Shown here piece after piece: positions 10,600 to 19,212 of a DNA stretch of 32,498 nt (the first letter of the stretch is position 1; the number at the start of each line of letters is the position of its first letter). Source of the DNA: Planctomycetota bacterium (GTDB lineage: Bacteria > Planctomycetota > Planctomycetia > Gemmatales > Gemmataceae). The position numbers were made by a program, and so were the translations under genes. A model generated the notes under the pieces. The model made no database searches, had not been told where the DNA came from, and saw only the letters and a program-made list of their open reading frames with translations. The DNA lies in NCBI GenBank assembly GCA_016873095.1, contig VGYC01000074.1:1-32498 (forward strand), read 5' to 3'.

Positions 10600-11047
10600 G
10601 GATCATGGCTCGTCGCAACGACTCAAACAAGCGTGACTGAACGTCGCTTGGCGGTTTCGCGCACGACATCGTGCGCGAAGCAGTCAGGCGATTCCCCGCA
10701 CGCTTGAGAGGTCACAAATCGTCGTCGCAATCTGTTTCTTGCAAGTTACTTGCGGCACGCATCCGAAGTTGCCGGAAGTTGCCGGCCAGGTTGTGCGTGT
10801 ATCCCCGTCACGGTTTTCGGACAGCCGACCCTGTCAACCAGAACGCGCGCGTCACTTCAGCCGTGACAAATCGTAACATCCATATTCACAATTGGTTGCA
10901 GCAACTCTTCTGTCCAGAACAGTACCGGTGGCGGGGCGGAAACTCCGCATCGGGGCGTAGCGCGCCGGTCGGCAGGTCCGGTTGTAACGAAGAATTGGGT
11001 TGTACGGGAATCGAATTGGATCTGCGAAAAAACTGGGAAAAACGACC
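10600..11047. other. Gene-free stretch after proA
   Basis: I see no supported gene. The stretch carries interspersed repeat copy B (10627-10679) and a small direct repeat (GAAGTTGCCG twice near 10768-10790). The rest is of mixed composition. An open frame through 10671-11237 exists but shows no start signal or protein-like pattern and runs across the promoter of the next gene. Confidence 0.5.
10627..10679. repeat. Interspersed intergenic repeat, copy B
   Basis: The first 45 bases match copy A (2470-2514) at 42 positions and contain the shared core CGCTTGGCGGTTTCGCGC. Here the right half is a perfect palindrome: 11-base arms TTCGCGCACGA and its complement around a CA loop (10656-10679). It lies 28 bases after the proA stop. 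There is no T-run. Confidence 0.8.
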
Positions 11048-11096
11048 CATCTTTCCCATTTTTACTGTTGACTATTGTTTTAGCTATCTTTACTAT
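11048..11096 (+). promoter_or_regulatory. Promoter and upstream box of first Cys-rich gene
   Basis: TTGACT (11068-11073) and TACTAT (11091-11096) are separated by 17 bases. The 14-base box CATCTTTCCCATTT (11048-11061) lies 6 bases before the -35. The same box, -35, spacing and -10 are found before the second Cys-rich gene. The predicted transcript would have a leader of about 80 bases. Confidence 0.8.
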
Positions 11097-11102
11097 CCAC
11101 CC

Positions 11103-11184
11103 CAGACACAATTTTGGCTCCAGGACCAGAGGTTTCCTGATATTGCATGGGTTGGCTTCCTTTTGAATGGAGGAGGTGTACGAG
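11103..11184 (+). promoter_or_regulatory. Conserved untranslated leader of first Cys-rich gene
   Basis: The leader shares two blocks with that of the second gene: TGGCTCCAGG (11115-11124) and GATATTGCATGGGTTGGC (11139-11156, 16 of 18 bases alike). A strong GGAGGAGGTG Shine-Dalgarno (11169-11178) follows. The retained blocks outside coding sequence suggest an RNA or protein recognition role, which is not proven. Confidence 0.55.
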
Positions 11185-11781
11185 ATGTACAGTGTTGTGT
11201 TGATGTTGGCTGTGAGTGGTGGCGCCGAACTGCCTGAGCGGTGCGGTGGTTGCTGCTCCTGCTCGTGCAGCCGCGGCTGCAACCGTGGTTGCCACGGTTG
11301 TCATGGTTGCAACCGTTGCCATGGTTGCCATGGTTGCCATGGTTGTCATGGTTGCCGTAAGTGCCACCGTTGCCACGGCTGCCATAGCTGCCACGGTTGC
11401 CACGGCTACGTTGGTTGCCACGGCGTTGTCGCCTGCACCGGCTGCCACGGCGGCTGCCACGGCGCCCCCGTTTCTCCGACTCCCGAGAAGATCAAGAAGC
11501 CCGCTACCACGGGCACCGAAGGTCCGGCTACGATCCTGGTCAACCTGCCTGCCGACGCTCGTCTGAGCATCGACGGCAATGTCACGACCTCGACCTCCGA
11601 GCGCCGCACTTTCAACACCCCGGTCCTGCCGGTTGGTGAGCAGTTCCAGTACACGCTGCGGGCCGAGATCCTCCGCGATGGTCGCACCATCGTCGAGACT
11701 CAGCAGGTCAACGTTCGCGGTGGTGAAGAGACCGTCGTCGACTTCAGCTTTGCGACCTCCAGCGTGGCTTCCGCCCGCTAA
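11185..11781 (+). CDS. Cys/His-rich CHG-repeat protein with C-terminal TIGR03000-like domain
   Basis: This 198-residue protein begins MYSVVLMLAVSGG and then has 23 Cys and about 14 His within roughly 75 residues, mostly as CHG units (GCHGCHGCNRCHGCHGC and so on). A linker (PEKIKKPATTGTEGP) leads to a C-terminal domain of about 75 residues: ATILVNLPADARLSIDGN, then YTLRAEILRDGRTIVET and VNVRGGEETVVDF. I recognise this as the planctomycete TIGR03000 domain. Many units also fit CXXCH, the heme-c pattern, but they overlap and no clear export signal is present, so metal binding is more likely than multiheme chemistry. ATG 11185 follows the strong Shine-Dalgarno; ATG 11167 overlaps it. The function of the domain is unknown to me. 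Confidence 0.85.
   Translation: MYSVVLMLAVSGGAELPERCGGCCSCSCSRGCNRGCHGCHGCNRCHGCHGCHGCHGCRKCHRCHGCHSCHGCHGYVGCHGVVACTGCHGGCHGAPVSPTPEKIKKPATTGTEGPATILVNLPADARLSIDGNVTTSTSERRTFNTPVLPVGEQFQYTLRAEILRDGRTIVETQQVNVRGGEETVVDFSFATSSVASAR
11300..11360. repeat. Nine-base tandem coding repeat (GGTTGCCAT type)
   Basis: Within the first Cys-rich gene the 9-base unit GGTTGCCAT (with GGTTGTCAT variants) is repeated in tandem and encodes CHG. Such a repeat can change length in whole codons, so the number of CHG units may vary between strains. Confidence 0.6.
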
Positions 11782-11814
11782 CTCGTAAGGCTCGTAGAGT
11801 TCGAAAGCCCATGT

Positions 11815-11859
11815 CGGGCCTGGCTGATTCCTGGAGGTCAGCCAGGCCCGGCTTTTTTT
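11815..11859 (+). terminator. Intrinsic terminator of first Cys-rich gene
   Basis: CGGGCCTGGCTGA (11815-11827) and its exact complement (11838-11850) form a 13-base-pair stem with a 10-base loop, followed by GC and seven Ts. It separates the first gene from the promoter of the second, so each is its own transcription unit. Confidence 0.9.
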
Positions 11860-11966
11860 GCAGCTGCCTGCCAGTCTCCCCCTGACCTCACTTCTGTTGC
11901 GACGGCCTGCCTTCGATAATCCAGCGTTTTTCGCAGCCGTGCCCGTCATCCGCTCGTTGGCCCTTA

Positions 11967-12014
11967 CATCTTTCCCATTTGCCTGTTGACTCCCTGCTTG
12001 TCTATTTTTACTAT
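11967..12014 (+). promoter_or_regulatory. Promoter and upstream box of second Cys-rich gene
   Basis: CATCTTTCCCATTT (11967-11980), TTGACT (11986-11991) and TACTAT (12009-12014, 17-base spacer) repeat the arrangement at 11048-11096. The rest of the spacer differs, so the boxes look conserved by selection rather than by recent duplication. Confidence 0.8.
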
Positions 12015-12020
12015 CATACC

Positions 12021-12104
12021 CAGAAGGAACTGGCTCCAGGCTGTTGAAGCTTAGTGGATATGGCGTGGGTTGGCACATTTCTGCGATTCAAGGAGGTGCA
12101 TCAG
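12021..12104 (+). promoter_or_regulatory. Conserved untranslated leader of second Cys-rich gene
   Basis: The leader has TGGCTCCAGG (12031-12040) and GATATGGCGTGGGTTGGC (12057-12074), the counterparts of the blocks in the first leader, and an AAGGAGGTG Shine-Dalgarno before the ATG. Length and order of blocks are nearly the same as in the first leader. Confidence 0.55.
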
Positions 12105-12587
12105 ATGTACAGCGTTGTGATGATGATGGCTATGTCTGGGGCAGTTGATCTGCCCGAGCGTAACAGGTGCTGCAGTTGCAATTGCTCCTGCAGTTGCCGG
12201 GGCTGCCGCAAGAGCTGCCGCGGCTGTCGCGGTTGCCATGGCTGCTGCTCTTGCCATGGCTGCACGGGCTGCTGCGGCGGCGTCGTGATCGTGGCTCCGG
12301 CCAAGACCAAGAAGATGACCAGCGGCGAAGCGCCGGCGATCATCCGCGTCTCCCTGCCGGCGAACGCCACGTTGACCGTGGACGGCACGGCCACCAGCTC
12401 TCGCTCCAGCGAACGCGTTCTGGTCTCGCCACCTTTGGCCGAGAACCAGGAATTCGTCTACACCTTGCGCGCCGAGATTATCCGTGAGGACCGCACCGTG
12501 GCCCAGACGCAACGCATCACCGTGCGTGGCGGCCAGGAAACCAGCGTCCCGTTCAATTTCGCAACCAGCGAAGTTGCCGCGCGCTAA
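12105..12587 (+). CDS. Cys-rich protein with C-terminal TIGR03000-like domain (paralog)
   Basis: This 160-residue paralog of the 11185-11781 product starts MYSVVMMMAMSG. Its Cys-rich segment has 16 Cys in about 36 residues, with CSC, CRGC and CHGC units and far fewer His than the paralog (CRGCHGCCSCHGCTGCC). The C-terminal domain is well conserved: IIRVSLPANATLTVDG, YTLRAEIIREDRTVAQT and ITVRGGQETSVPF. ATG 12105 is preferred because AAGGAGGTG lies 6-7 bases upstream. It has its own promoter, leader and terminator. A metal- or thiol-linked structural role is inference; I do not know the function. Confidence 0.85.
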   Translation: MYSVVMMMAMSGAVDLPERNRCCSCNCSCSCRGCRKSCRGCRGCHGCCSCHGCTGCCGGVVIVAPAKTKKMTSGEAPAIIRVSLPANATLTVDGTATSSRSSERVLVSPPLAENQEFVYTLRAEIIREDRTVAQTQRITVRGGQETSVPFNFATSEVAAR

Positions 12588-12896
12588 ACGCTACTTGACG
12601 ACTTCACCCTCGACATCGGCCGCCGCCTGGAGCCGGCGACCGGTCGACCGGGGATGGGCAACCGGGAGGGCCTTCGGGCCCTCCCTTCTTTTTTTGGGAG
12701 TGTCGGGCTCAAAATCCGGATTTCCGTTTTTTTCCCACCTTGCCGGATTTCATGAGCTAGGTTTTGGTTGTCCCAAGTTCGCTCAAACGTTCGAGACATC
12801 ATCGAGCGAAAAAGCTAAACCCGTCGCGAGGCGGGGGCGGAAAACCATGGGCCTCCCACCGGGAGGTCGCCAGGTTGCCGAAAGGATGATCGACTC
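12588..12896. other. Gap between second Cys-rich gene and htrA-like gene
   Basis: The gap holds the terminator at 12664-12695. The remainder has two CCGGATTT words and short T-runs (12727-12733) but no gene or clear promoter that I can support. The htrA-like start is preceded by GAAAGGATG. Confidence 0.45.
12664..12695 (+). terminator. Intrinsic terminator of second Cys-rich gene
   Basis: GGGAGGGCC (12664-12672) and GGCCCTCCC (12677-12685) form a 9-base-pair stem capped by the stable TTCG loop, followed by TTCTTTTTTT. It lies 77 bases after the stop codon. Confidence 0.9.
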
Positions 12897-13976
12897 ATGC
12901 GCAGCTCTCCCGTCCGTTGGGCGTTGGCCGTCGTTGCCATGGCCCTGTCAGTCACCGTTCTAGCCGTCAGCACCGGGGCCGCAACAGAGAAGACAGCAAA
13001 GTCAGGCGCGTTTTCCCGGCGCAATCCCGTCGTCATCGCCGTTCAGAAGACCCGCGACAGCATCGTGTCCATCCGCGTGCCGCGCGCCGGAACGCGCGAC
13101 ATGGTGGGCACCGGCGTCATCGTGGACGAACGCGGCTTCGTGGTCACCAATCGCCACGTCGTCGGCAGGGCCAAGTCCATGAAGGTCCAGCTCTGGGACG
13201 GCACCAGCCTCGAGGCCGAACTTGTCGCCGGCGAGACCGCTCTCGACCTGGCCATTCTCAAGCTCACCTCCAGCAAGAAGTTGCCCGCACTGCATCTGGG
13301 CCCCGTTAGTGACCTGATGATTGGTGAATCCGTCATTGCCATCGGCCATCCGTTCGGTTACACGAACACGGTTTCCACCGGCATCATCAGCGCCCTCGAC
13401 CGTGCCATCACCATGCCCACTGGCGATGCGCTCACGGGACTCATTCAGACCGATGCCAGCATCAACCCGGGCAACTCCGGTGGCCCGCTCTTGAACATCA
13501 ACGGCGAGCTGATCGGCATCAACGTCGCTCTTCGCGAAGGCGCCCAGGGCATCGCCTTCGCCATCAACGCCGACACCGTCAAGAACGTCTTGAGCAAGCA
13601 CCTGAACGCGCAACGTCTGGCCGGCGTCAGCCACGGCCTCAACGTCCACGAGAAAGTTGTCGGTGAGACCGGCGAGCGCCAGCGCGTCGTGGTGGCCGAA
13701 TGCTCCGCCAAGGCCTGCGACAAGCTGTTGGCCGGCGATGAGGTGAAGACCATCGGCGACCGTTCGATCGTCAACGCCTTCGACGTGGAACGGGCGCTGT
13801 GGGACAAGAAGCCGGGGCAGACGGTTGCTCTGCGGATCGTTCGTCAGGGGCAAGAGCTGACGGTACAGCTGACGCTGTTACCAGGCCAGGGGGCCGGACA
13901 GGTGACCGCCATTCAGGGTTCGAACTCCCGTCCCACGGGCGCCGCCTCCGGCGTACCCGTCGGCAATCGACCCTGA
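12897..13976 (+). CDS. HtrA/DegP-like trypsin-type serine protease with PDZ domain
   Basis: This is a secreted serine protease of 359 residues for envelope protein quality control. A signal peptide (ALAVVAMALSVTVLAVSTGA, about residues 9-28) is followed by a trypsin-like domain. The catalytic triad is visible: His87 in TNRHVV, Asp117 in ALDLAIL and Ser194 in NPGNSGGPL. A single PDZ-like domain (about residues 245-335) contains LLAGDEVKTIGDRSIVNAFD. E. coli DegP has two PDZ domains and is longer, so this is nearer to DegS-like or planctomycete-type short HtrA. The gene stands alone between terminators at 12695 and 14066. The tail after residue 335 is Gly/Pro/Ser rich. Confidence 0.93.
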   Translation: MRSSPVRWALAVVAMALSVTVLAVSTGAATEKTAKSGAFSRRNPVVIAVQKTRDSIVSIRVPRAGTRDMVGTGVIVDERGFVVTNRHVVGRAKSMKVQLWDGTSLEAELVAGETALDLAILKLTSSKKLPALHLGPVSDLMIGESVIAIGHPFGYTNTVSTGIISALDRAITMPTGDALTGLIQTDASINPGNSGGPLLNINGELIGINVALREGAQGIAFAINADTVKNVLSKHLNAQRLAGVSHGLNVHEKVVGETGERQRVVVAECSAKACDKLLAGDEVKTIGDRSIVNAFDVERALWDKKPGQTVALRIVRQGQELTVQLTLLPGQGAGQVTAIQGSNSRPTGAASGVPVGNRP

Positions 13977-14001
13977 GGCGGACTTCGAGAAGAGGCGACG
14001 G

Positions 14002-14029
14002 AACCGAGAGAGAGGAACCGAGAGAGAGG
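14002..14029. repeat. Two-copy tandem repeat GGAACCGAGAGAGA
   Basis: A 14-base unit is repeated twice in tandem between the protease stop codon and its terminator hairpin. It is purine-rich and non-coding. No function is apparent. Confidence 0.6.
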
Positions 14030-14042
14030 AACGGAGAAGAAG

Positions 14043-14075
14043 GACCCGCGGCGCAAGTCGCGGGTCTTTCTGTTG
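14043..14075 (+). terminator. Probable intrinsic terminator of htrA-like gene
   Basis: GACCCGCG (14043-14050) pairs exactly with CGCGGGTC (14059-14066) across an 8-base loop, followed by the weak T-tract TTTCTGTT. It lies 66 bases after the protease stop and before the moaE promoter. Confidence 0.65.
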
Positions 14076-14102
14076 CCACGTGCAGAAATGCAACAAGTCC
14101 TG

Positions 14103-14129
14103 TTGCCCTTCGCAAGCAACGCTTAGAAT
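14103..14129 (+). promoter_or_regulatory. Candidate leaderless promoter of moaE
   Basis: TAGAAT (14124-14129) ends 6 bases before the moaE ATG; TTGCCC (14103-14108) is a possible -35 with a short 15-base spacer. No Shine-Dalgarno sequence precedes the ATG. The arrangement matches those at parA and ybeY. Confidence 0.45.
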
Positions 14130-14135
14130 AGCAGC

Positions 14136-14555
14136 ATGATTCGCCTCACTCGCGATACCATCGATTATCATGCTCTCGTGGACAGGGTGCGCTGCAACCA
14201 TTGTGGCGGTGTTTGCGCATTTCTCGGCACCGTGCGCGACCTGACCGACGACAAGGTCACCCTGGCGCTTGATTACGAGGCCTACCCTGCCATGGCCGAA
14301 AAGAAGATGGCAGAGATCGAAGCCGAAACTCGGGCGCGCTGGCCGGTGGGCGAAATGGTTCTGGAGCATCGACTGGGCCATCTGCAAGTGGGGGAGGTGA
14401 GCGTCGCCGTTGCCGTCAGTTGCCCTCACCGCGCCCAGGCCTTCGAGGCCTGTCGCCACGCCATCGACCGCTTGAAGGAACTTGTCCCCATCTGGAAAAA
14501 AGAAAACTGGAGCGATGGCTCAAACGAATGGGTGCATCCGGACAAGCAAGACTAG
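14136..14555 (+). CDS. moaE: Molybdopterin synthase catalytic subunit
   Basis: MoaE is the large subunit of molybdopterin synthase. With the thiocarboxylated MoaD it puts sulfur into cyclic pyranopterin monophosphate during molybdenum-cofactor synthesis. The protein has 139 residues, a typical length. Family segments are GGVCAFLGTVRDLT, LDYEAYPAMAEKKM, HRLGHLQVGEVSVAVAVS, HRAQAFEACRHAID and the active-site block LKELVPIWKKENWSDGSNEWV with its conserved Lys residues. No moaD or other cofactor gene is adjacent. The start is fixed by the family N-terminus and the nearby -10 box. Confidence 0.95.
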   Translation: MIRLTRDTIDYHALVDRVRCNHCGGVCAFLGTVRDLTDDKVTLALDYEAYPAMAEKKMAEIEAETRARWPVGEMVLEHRLGHLQVGEVSVAVAVSCPHRAQAFEACRHAIDRLKELVPIWKKENWSDGSNEWVHPDKQD

Positions 14556-16026: not shown

Positions 16027-16065
16027 CCCGTGCCCAAGACCAGCCTGTCAGACCCGGGAGACATC

Positions 16066-19000
16066 ATGCCTCGCGCGTTCGTCATTGTTGCCTGCGCCTT
16101 GCTCGCGACCGGCTCGATCCGTGCTCAAGAGATCGAGTTCAATCGCGATATCCGTCCGATACTGTCGGAGAATTGCTTCCAGTGTCATGGGCCTGACAGC
16201 GGACAGCGCAAGGCCGGTCTGCGGCTTGACCAGCGTGACAGCGCCCTGGCCGACAGCGGCGCCGGCACCGCCATCGTTCCCGGCAAGCCGGCACAGAGCC
16301 TGCTCGTCGCGCGCATCAACGAGGCCAGGCCGTCGCGCCGCATGCCGCCGGCCAGGAGCGGCCGAACGCTGACGCCCCAGCAAATCGACCTGCTCACGCG
16401 CTGGGTCGCGCAGGGGGCCGGCTACCAGCGGCACTGGTCGTTCATTCCGCCGAAGCGCTGGGACCTGCCGCGCGTCAAGACCGGTAGCTGGCCAGCCAAC
16501 GGCATCGATCATTTCGTCCTCGAGCGGCTGGAGAAGGAGGGGTTACAGCCATCGCCTCGTGCCGCGCGCGAGACGCTGCTGCGCCGCGTCACCTTCGACC
16601 TGACAGGGCTGCCCCCCACGCCCGGGGAACTGCATGATTTCCTCGCGGACCGGTCCGCCGAGGCCTACGACAAGGTTGTCGATCGCCTGCTCGAGTCGCC
16701 GCGCTTCGGCGAGCGCATGGCCCTGCACTGGCTCGACCTGGCACGCTATGCCGACACCAACGGCTACAACAACGACGAGGAACGCTCCATGTGGCTGTGG
16801 CGCGACTGGGTCATCGACGCGTTCAACGAGAACATGCCCTTCGACCGGTTCCTGACGGAACAGCTCGCCGGCGACCTGCTGCCCGGTGCCACGAACACGC
16901 AGAAGATCGCGACCGCCTTCAATCGCAATCACGTCATCACGACGGAGGGCGGCATCTTCCCCGAGGAGTATCGCGTCGAGTACGTGGCTGATCGCGTGCA
17001 TACCACCGCCACCGTATTTCTTGGCCTGTCCATGCAGTGCGCCCGCTGTCACGACCACAAGTATGACCCGATCTCGATGAAGGACTACTATCGCTTCTTC
17101 GCGTTCTTCAACAATGTCGAGGACAAGACCATCGGCTACAACCAGGGGGCGGCCGCCGCGCCGTTCATCAAGGCGCCGTCGAAGGAGCAGAAGAAGCAGC
17201 TCGCCGCTCTGGAAACGCATCGCCACGAGCTGGCTGCACGTTTGCGCATGCGCGAACAGCAAGCGTCCGCTGACGCCGCTCGGTGGGAACAGGGACTCAG
17301 CTCCGCGGCCATCGCCGGGCTGGCCACGACAGCCGCGCATCACTTCCCGTTTGATGACGGCAAGGGCGACAAGGTCCTTTCGGCGAAGCCGGCCGGCCAC
17401 GTCGGCCAGGTCAACGGCAAGCCCAGGTGGACGCCCGGCAAGATCGGCGGCGCCCTCGAACTCGATGGACAAACGCACGTCGAGGCGGGCAGCATCGCCG
17501 GCTTCGACCGCTCCGATCCTTTTACGCTCGGCCTCTGGGTTTTCCCGATCGCCGATACCGGCGCCCTGCTCAGCAAGATGGACGAGGACAACGCCTACCG
17601 CGGCTACGACCTGCTCCTCGAGCGCGGCAAGATCGTCGTCCACCTGATCCATCACTGGGCCGACAATGCGATCAAGATCATCGGCAAGCAGCCGCTGACC
17701 GTCCAGCAATGGCATCACGTGCTGGTCAGCTACGACGGGTCCGGCAAGGCCGCCGGGCTAACTGTCTACGTGGACGGCAAGCCGAGTCCATTTGACGTTC
17801 ATACCGACAAGCTCTCTGCAACGATTCACACGGCGCAGCCGTTGCGGCTCGGGCTGCGGACACGCTCGTTGCCCTTCCAGGGCAAGCTGGACGATCTGCA
17901 AATATTCCGGCTGGCTTTGTCCCCGGCCGATGCCATGCGCCTGGCCGCGGGCAAGCCAGTTGCCGGCATCGCCGAGTTACTGACGCTGCCGCTGCAAAAG
18001 CGCAGTGCCGAGCAACGCCGCCAGATCAACCTGTACTACCTGGAAAACGTCGATGTTTCTTATCGCAAGCTGCAAGGCGAACTGTCGGCCGTCGCCGGAC
18101 GCGAAGCTGAAGTCAAGAAGGCAATGCCGCTGACGATGGTGATGGCCGAGTTGCCGACGCCGCGGCAGGCGCACATTCTCAAGCGCGGCCAGTACGACCA
18201 GCCGGGCGAGGCGGTCAGCCTCGGCGTGCCCGCCGCGCTGTCGAAGCTGCCGGCCGATGCGCCACGCAATCGCCTCGGCCTCGCGCGCTGGCTGGTCGAT
18301 CCAGCCCATCCGCTGACGGCGCGCGTGGCTGTAAACCGCTGGTGGGAGATGCTCTTCGGCATCGGCATCGTCGAGACGGTGGAGGACTTCGGCGCCCAGG
18401 GCGCCTGGCCCAGCCATCCGGAGCTGCTCGACTGGCTGGCCACCGAGCTGATCCGCAATCGTTGGGACGTGAAGGCGACGATGAAGCTGATCGTCGCCTC
18501 GGCGACCTATCGACAATCGTCGCATGCGACGCGTGCGCTGCACGACCGCGATCCGAAGAATCGTCTGCTGGCCCGCGGTCCGCGCGTGCGCCTCGGCGCC
18601 GAGACGATTCGCGACAATGCCCTGGCCATCAGCGGCCTGCTGCGCGAGAAAGTCGGCGGCCCGAGCGTCAAGCCGTATCAGCCCGAAGGCCTCTGGGAAG
18701 ACGTCTCCGTCGAGCGCCGGGCGATCTACAAAAAGGACAAGGGCGAGGGTCTGTATCGCCGCAGCATGTACACCTACTGGAAGCGCACCTGCCCGCCGCC
18801 GGGGATGACGACCTTCGACGCCCCCGACCGCGAGACTTGCACCATCCGCCGTGCCCGCACCAACACGCCCCTGCAAGCCTTGTTGCTGCTCAACGACACG
18901 ACCTACCTGGAAGCGGCCCGCAAATTCGCCGAGCGCATCCACAAGGAAGGCGGCACGACGCTGGAAAGCCGGCTGCGACACGCCTATCGCCTCGCGCTGT

Positions 19001-19212
19001 CACGTTTGCCGCGCCCGGAGGAAGCCGAGCTGCTGCTGTCGCTCCACGGTGAAGCGCTGGAGAAGTTCCGACGCGACCCGAAAGCCGCGACCAAGCTGCT
19101 CAGCCACGGCGACGCGCCGCGCGACGCCTCCCTGAACGTCGCCGAACTGGCCGCCTGGACAACGGTGGCGAGCACGATCCTGAATCTGGATGAGGCGATC
19201 ACGAAGGAGTAG
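16066..19212 (+). CDS. PSCyt1/DUF1549/LamG/DUF1553 planctomycete cytochrome-c protein
   Basis: This is a large exported protein of about 1048 residues of a type largely confined to Planctomycetes and relatives. In order: a signal peptide ending near RAQ (residue 21); a PSCyt1 cytochrome-c domain with heme motif CFQCH (37-41); DUF1549 (about 150-350, RVTFDLTGLPPTP) with a second CXXCH, CARCH (325-329); a LamG-like concanavalin fold (about 425-630); and DUF1553 (about 700-1030, HILKRGQYDQPGE and NRLGLARWLVDP). ATG 16066 is chosen over GTG 16030 because a Shine-Dalgarno-like GGGAG precedes it and the signal peptide then begins at the N-terminus. The exact reaction is unknown; these proteins are linked to breakdown of complex polysaccharides. 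Confidence 0.93.
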   Translation: MPRAFVIVACALLATGSIRAQEIEFNRDIRPILSENCFQCHGPDSGQRKAGLRLDQRDSALADSGAGTAIVPGKPAQSLLVARINEARPSRRMPPARSGRTLTPQQIDLLTRWVAQGAGYQRHWSFIPPKRWDLPRVKTGSWPANGIDHFVLERLEKEGLQPSPRAARETLLRRVTFDLTGLPPTPGELHDFLADRSAEAYDKVVDRLLESPRFGERMALHWLDLARYADTNGYNNDEERSMWLWRDWVIDAFNENMPFDRFLTEQLAGDLLPGATNTQKIATAFNRNHVITTEGGIFPEEYRVEYVADRVHTTATVFLGLSMQCARCHDHKYDPISMKDYYRFFAFFNNVEDKTIGYNQGAAAAPFIKAPSKEQKKQLAALETHRHELAARLRMREQQASADAARWEQGLSSAAIAGLATTAAHHFPFDDGKGDKVLSAKPAGHVGQVNGKPRWTPGKIGGALELDGQTHVEAGSIAGFDRSDPFTLGLWVFPIADTGALLSKMDEDNAYRGYDLLLERGKIVVHLIHHWADNAIKIIGKQPLTVQQWHHVLVSYDGSGKAAGLTVYVDGKPSPFDVHTDKLSATIHTAQPLRLGLRTRSLPFQGKLDDLQIFRLALSPADAMRLAAGKPVAGIAELLTLPLQKRSAEQRRQINLYYLENVDVSYRKLQGELSAVAGREAEVKKAMPLTMVMAELPTPRQAHILKRGQYDQPGEAVSLGVPAALSKLPADAPRNRLGLARWLVDPAHPLTARVAVNRWWEMLFGIGIVETVEDFGAQGAWPSHPELLDWLATELIRNRWDVKATMKLIVASATYRQSSHATRALHDRDPKNRLLARGPRVRLGAETIRDNALAISGLLREKVGGPSVKPYQPEGLWEDVSVERRAIYKKDKGEGLYRRSMYTYWKRTCPPPGMTTFDAPDRETCTIRRARTNTPLQALLLLNDTTYLEAARKFAERIHKEGGTTLESRLRHAYRLALSRLPRPEEAELLLSLHGEALEKFRRDPKAATKLLSHGDAPRDASLNVAELAAWTTVASTILNLDEAITKE

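Follow-up and report, generated by a model that had tools for sequence, protein, structure and literature searches.

The locus raises the question of whether two adjacent, cysteine-rich paralogues keep similar control regions under a shared, selected regulation. The window, meaning the whole analysed stretch of 32,498 nucleotides of a Planctomycetota bacterium (contig VGYC01000074.1), belongs to a genome of 8.36 Mb (G000). Both proteins start with MYSVV, are rich in cysteine and carry a TIGR03000 domain toward the C-terminal end. The reading favoured here, with a probability of roughly 0.64, is that a dedicated transcriptional operator and a translational leader stand before Cys-rich MYS genes, within which we infer the regulator and the translational role.

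The initial annotation described twin TIGR03000 genes with a duplicated box, promoter, leader blocks and strong Shine-Dalgarno sequence, each gene closing in its own intrinsic terminator. All of these elements were located, with stems and T-runs present after both genes, as listed below, where R2 denotes a promoter profile made from 8 sequences, none of them from the window.

11048..11061, plus strand: box copy 1, CATCTTTCCCATTT, the local version of the CCCARWTT box that the family carries immediately 5' of the -35
11068..11096, plus strand: promoter 1, TTGACT-N17-TACTAT (R2 profile match 11049-11107, E=6e-10)
11115..11124, plus strand: leader 5' block 1, TGGCTCCAGG, family form GRCYCCRGG
11139..11156, plus strand: leader core 1, GATATTGCATGGGTTGGC, GCRTGGGTTGG, pattern GATAT(T/G)GC(A/G)TGGGTTGGC
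11171..11176, plus strand: Shine-Dalgarno 1, AGGAGG
11185..11781, plus strand: gene 1, MYSVVLMLAV..., 198 aa, 23 Cys, CHGC-type repeats
11524-11745: TIGR03000 domain of gene 1, 80 bits against a cut-off of 43.1
11813..11859, plus strand: intrinsic terminator 1, 17-bp stem (11813-11852) then T7
11967..11980, plus strand: box copy 2, CATCTTTCCCATTT
11986..12014, plus strand: promoter 2, TTGACT-N17-TACTAT (R2 profile match 11967-12027, E=1.7e-9)
12031..12040, plus strand: leader 5' block 2, TGGCTCCAGG
12057..12074, plus strand: leader core 2, GATATGGCGTGGGTTGGC, pattern GATAT(T/G)GC(A/G)TGGGTTGGC
12091..12096, plus strand: Shine-Dalgarno 2, AGGAGG
12105..12587, plus strand: gene 2, MYSVVMMMAM..., 160 aa, 16 Cys
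12333-12554: TIGR03000 domain of gene 2, 63 bits against a cut-off of 43.1
12664..12695, plus strand: intrinsic terminator 2, 9-bp stem GGGAGGGCC-TTCG-GGCCCTCCC (12664-12685), then a T-run

Three promoter-like sites occur in 2 kb, two of them being these promoters, where shuffles expect 0.4. The box to -35 gap is not identical, measuring 6 nt in copy 1 and 5 nt in copy 2. The exact 14-mer box has 2 copies in the whole genome, both in this window, and the window boxes match the family CCCARWTT consensus at 7/8 and 6/8 positions. A regulon defined by the exact box was rejected, the inspected one- and two-mismatch matches sitting at unrelated genes, and the exact box plus promoter was not found in 58 relatives. 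An inverted repeat, TGGGAAAAACGACCCATCTTTCCCA, at 11034-11058 overlaps box 1 alone and is terminator-like on the minus strand, copy 2 being without it. Elsewhere in the window, a trypsin-like protease with PDZ and then MoaE lie directly 3' of the gene pair (12897-14555), and a large serine recombinase (Resolvase, Recombinase, zinc ribbon) lies close to the left end (80-2257).

Comparing the two copies bears on how their likeness arose. Promoter 1 aligned with promoter 2 gives a score of 22, where 1000 shuffles reach at most 9, and the two leaders score 17 against -3.5 in shuffles; the scores lie far above the shuffles, so the likeness of promoter and leader is not due to chance. Identity of aligned bases is 76% in the promoter and 69% in the leader; the first 60 coding nucleotides reach 73%, the 80 bp preceding the box 50%, and the TIGR03000 domains of genes 1 and 2 share 50% amino-acid identity. 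The control region, annotated as undiverged, is thus kept imperfectly. A recent tandem duplication alone, making the control regions alike with no function involved, would agree with the adjacency and same orientation of the genes and with the presence of two leader copies in this genome only. It is nonetheless hardly credible: with domains that share only 50% identity, similar to the identity with other genera (about 30-53% over matched stretches for the window paralogues), the two genes did not arise by recent duplication, and they are not sisters in the tree, gene 2 grouping instead with a gene of another genus at a weak node. The promoter and leader are, moreover, kept in other genera, which already contradicts it. 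Selected shared regulation thus gains support on two counts, since the leader core and the box with promoter precede MYS-type genes in many genera, rather than being absent upstream of homologues, and since very recent duplication fails as an account.

The R2 profile was used to follow the promoter across the family. Its matches in G000 are the two window promoters only. Of the 30 best family matches with loci, 28 stand before a MYS gene and the loci of the other 2 are cut off by contig ends; the 35 that follow in rank, with E from about 1e-4 to 0.1, include 26 before a MYS gene. The exceptions with E<0.01 are L263 and L274 (genus g16), where the MYS start was not found, and the remaining misses have E>0.01. 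Across 199 genomes sampled from the class, all matches fall inside the family. A strict pattern, CCCARWTTNCNNTTGAC-N17-19-TANNAT, gave 28 matches, one each in 28 of 95 family genomes, counts that are not independent events because of shared ancestry, genus-weighted figures being safer. All 28 lie before a MYS gene, one protein being cut by a contig end or the fetched stretch, and the reversed control of the pattern gave 0 matches in the 95 family genomes. The strict pattern misses both window promoters, which are looser. The proposed check, whether box and promoter always precede MYSVV-type genes in relatives, thus gave 28/28 before MYS genes for the strict form of the family-wide promoter; the exact 14-mer is local. 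Judged from these sequences, the exact box is a local form of the family-wide promoter, and the conserved unit is a 9-bp repeat ending against the -35. The window's flanking genes were not found around the orthologues, with two exceptions: L203 has a relative of the trypsin-like protease, and L205 has one of the gene at 16030-19212. The control module is independent of neighbouring genes.

The 28 nt upstream of the -35 have the genus-weighted consensus cAatTTcCccAatTTtCCCAatTTgCct, consisting of three copies of the 9-bp unit (CCCARWTTN). The box, scored as at least 7/8 at its fixed place, is present in 56 of 93 MYS promoters, in contrast to 4 of 98 control sites, promoter-like sequences taken from the same loci (Fisher p=1.8e-18), with 0.6% in shuffles and occurrence in 23 of 30 genera. 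Lag-9 autocorrelation reaches z=16.7 in MYS promoters versus 4.9 in control sites, with sharp peaks at 9 and 18 and far weaker values at lags 8, 10 and 11. Unit matches fall in one phase modulo 9 in 172 of 284 cases, continuing through the spacer and past the -10, whereas the control signal is much weaker. In the window's two promoters alone the 9-bp period is weak (lag-9 z 1.6 and 1.2). A tandem unit pair taken without the promoter is not specific, giving 21 matches (2 in the reversed control) of which 1 precedes a MYS gene. At L339 and L344, tandem CCCARWTT pairs precede genes whose proteins have an LEDRANPA/LESRAVPA-type motif close to the N-terminus; genes for other surface proteins may therefore use the unit as well.

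These results also bear on a simpler account, in which a strong constitutive promoter drives an abundant structural protein, the box acting as UP-like extended -35 context and the leader core as a translation enhancer, with no dedicated regulator. The near-consensus -35 and -10, the strong Shine-Dalgarno sequences, the separate terminators and the fixed abutment of the box on the -35 all fit such an arrangement. UP elements, however, are A/T tracts, whereas here a CCCA-containing 9-bp repeat keeps one phase and is also found in the spacer and past the -10; together with the rarity of the box at the control sites and the confinement of the strict pattern to MYS genes, this makes the constitutive account rather unlikely, and a dedicated operator is preferred.

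The leader was followed separately. A search of 95 family genomes for TGGGTTGGC-N-AGGAGG-N-ATGTA gave matches in 7, from 4 genera, each time before a MYS gene, with 1 match in the reversed control. The leader profile R1 matches the window at 11112-11187 with E=6.7e-14, a value to be read with the fact that R1 was built partly from that sequence, and it is credible in 13 genomes of 9 genera, with one copy in each of 12 and two in G000. Four R1 matches with E>0.01 were read or listed, that in L190 being real and three being false, and a GTDB scan with the leader added one further genome. The core GGGTTG(G) recurs in 9-12 genera, and an unbiased count of hexamers 14-75 nt before MYS starts ranks TGGGTT first, with occurrence in 14 of 33 genus groups versus 2.4 expected. 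The core lies 35.7 +/- 4.4 nt from the ATG, and the -10 to core distance is 149 +/- 61 nt (39-234 nt). Because the ATG distance is fixed and the promoter distance variable, the core probably acts in the mRNA, that is, at the RNA level. Many family members with the promoter lack the core, and leader-bearing genes are concentrated in one region of the MYS tree (4 changes versus 12.3 shuffled, on few columns and weak nodes).

Folding of the leaders with covariation, which had been proposed as a check, revealed no significant compensatory changes. Nearly all of the 11 leader sequences would allow the 5' block to pair with the core; covariation gave p=0.38 overall and 0.10 for inner pairs, in a test of low power because the sequences are few and the core invariant. 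A conserved hairpin sequestering the Shine-Dalgarno sequence was unsupported across the leader set (combined p=0.40), being strong in copy 1. Other leader blocks were observed in two genera: the MYS leaders of genus g16 (L248, L251, L256-L258) share CGGACACGGAGCCGCGRCCG, with hairpin potential, and those of genus g17 (L242, L244, L247, L255) carry a hairpin-like GCGTGGAGGGGTTCTCCACGC or a variant before GGGTTGTTCC.

The core might instead be read as a translated upstream ORF, [A/G]TG GGT TGG CTN ..., encoding a leader peptide M-G-W-L-x-F and exerting control by coupling or attenuation. Most leaders do open the core with ATG or GTG followed by GGT TGG, and the L187 leader, which is without that start codon, has an upstream in-frame ATG by eye. 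Inspection by eye also shows, however, that neither the reading frame with respect to the main gene nor the stop position is constant, that no conserved Shine-Dalgarno sequence precedes the ORF, and that the residues after GW differ (LPF, HIS, RTF, LTF, TPI), leaving a leader peptide improbable.

The class of genes under this control does not coincide with the domain. TIGR03000 is present in 44 of 44 good-quality family genomes sampled, and 8 sampled MYS proteins behind the strict promoter match no NCBIfam family. The domain is therefore not an obligatory part of these proteins, and the control module does not follow its distribution. The common feature of the controlled genes is an MYS N-terminus with a Cys/Gly-rich body, and not TIGR03000. 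Planctomycete walls contain other Cys-rich proteins, of YTV type (PMC8567305).

Taken together, the window region would carry two tandem copies of a control module dedicated, across the family, to small Cys-rich MYS genes. In its strict form there is one such promoter per genome, G000 having two that are slightly looser. At the DNA layer, a putative sigma-70-type promoter would have its -35 abutting an operator of CCCARWTTN 9-bp direct repeats in phase through the promoter, and a BldC-like regulator oligomerising head to tail on these repeats would set MYS transcription. At the RNA layer, in a subset of genes, a conserved 5'-UTR element, GRCYCCRGG ... GCRTGGGTTGG, whose spacing to the start codon is constant, may tune translation initiation as a site for an RNA-binding protein, a small RNA or a local fold. 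The conservation of the module, its position, its MYS specificity and its 9-bp phasing are what the sequences show. It looks like a real regulatory module, and no description of it turned up in the literature searched, nor anything on TIGR03000, the leader or the promoter. How Gemmata-type bacteria control their genes is little known, and a promoter pattern picking one gene per genome would be a direct handle on the regulator and on the Cys-rich MYS proteins. A bolder proposal, which we offer tentatively and hold at well under even odds, is that in this bacterial family a promoter-spanning array of 9-bp direct repeats, read by a regulator outside the actinobacteria that oligomerises head to tail, and a new mRNA leader jointly set the expression of an undescribed family of Cys-rich proteins.

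Several known systems invite comparison. Like the cis-regulatory 5'-UTR RNAs of Rfam, the MYS leaders have a conserved element near the Shine-Dalgarno sequence of one gene class, but they differ in having no covariation-supported fold; in Rfam 15 no family reached gathering score for the leader, the matches listed being weak and unrelated. The stretch GUGGGUUGGC resembles the T-box sequence, an identity set aside because the copy 1 leader is only about 80 nt long and has no Rfam match. Both window proteins exceed the cut-off of the TIGR03000 (plancto_dom_1) proteins of planctomycetes, whereas several MYS genes with the same promoter are without the domain. MraZ sites are TGGG repeats with a 10-bp period, and TGGG likewise appears on the other strand of the MYS unit, repeated upstream of the promoter; the MYS period is 9 bp and lag 10 is weak, which does not fit MraZ sites.

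In geometry the repeats resemble the operators of Streptomyces BldC, a protein that occupies direct repeats of 9 bp in a head-to-tail arrangement (PMC5859096; also PMC11963761). Its operators have the consensus AATTXXXX(C), with 9 bp per protomer and 2 to 4 or more units across the promoter (PMC5859096). The MYS promoters as a set have the 9-bp direct-repeat period, and their (R)WTTNCCCA is resembled by the smeA-sffA units GATTTCCCC and CATTTGCAC (PMC5859096). The MYS consensus AatTTtCCCAatTTgC would fit the BldC consensus, judged by eye, with the AT-rich 4-mer put on ARWT. The MYS unit differs in abutting the -35. No HTH_BldC match above cut-off was found in G000, the best reaching 40 bits against a cut-off of 77; a BldC-like regulator among the HTH_17 proteins of G000 is possible, since the genome holds 25 HTH_17 matches. 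Possible regulators are two MerR-like HTH_17 proteins (G000:C53, L300; G000:C127, L297), each about 310 aa long and bearing a GGHRKL motif like that of BldC; by eye they resemble B12-binding CarH-type proteins. If true, the 9-bp repeat array would extend a BldC-like geometry to another phylum.
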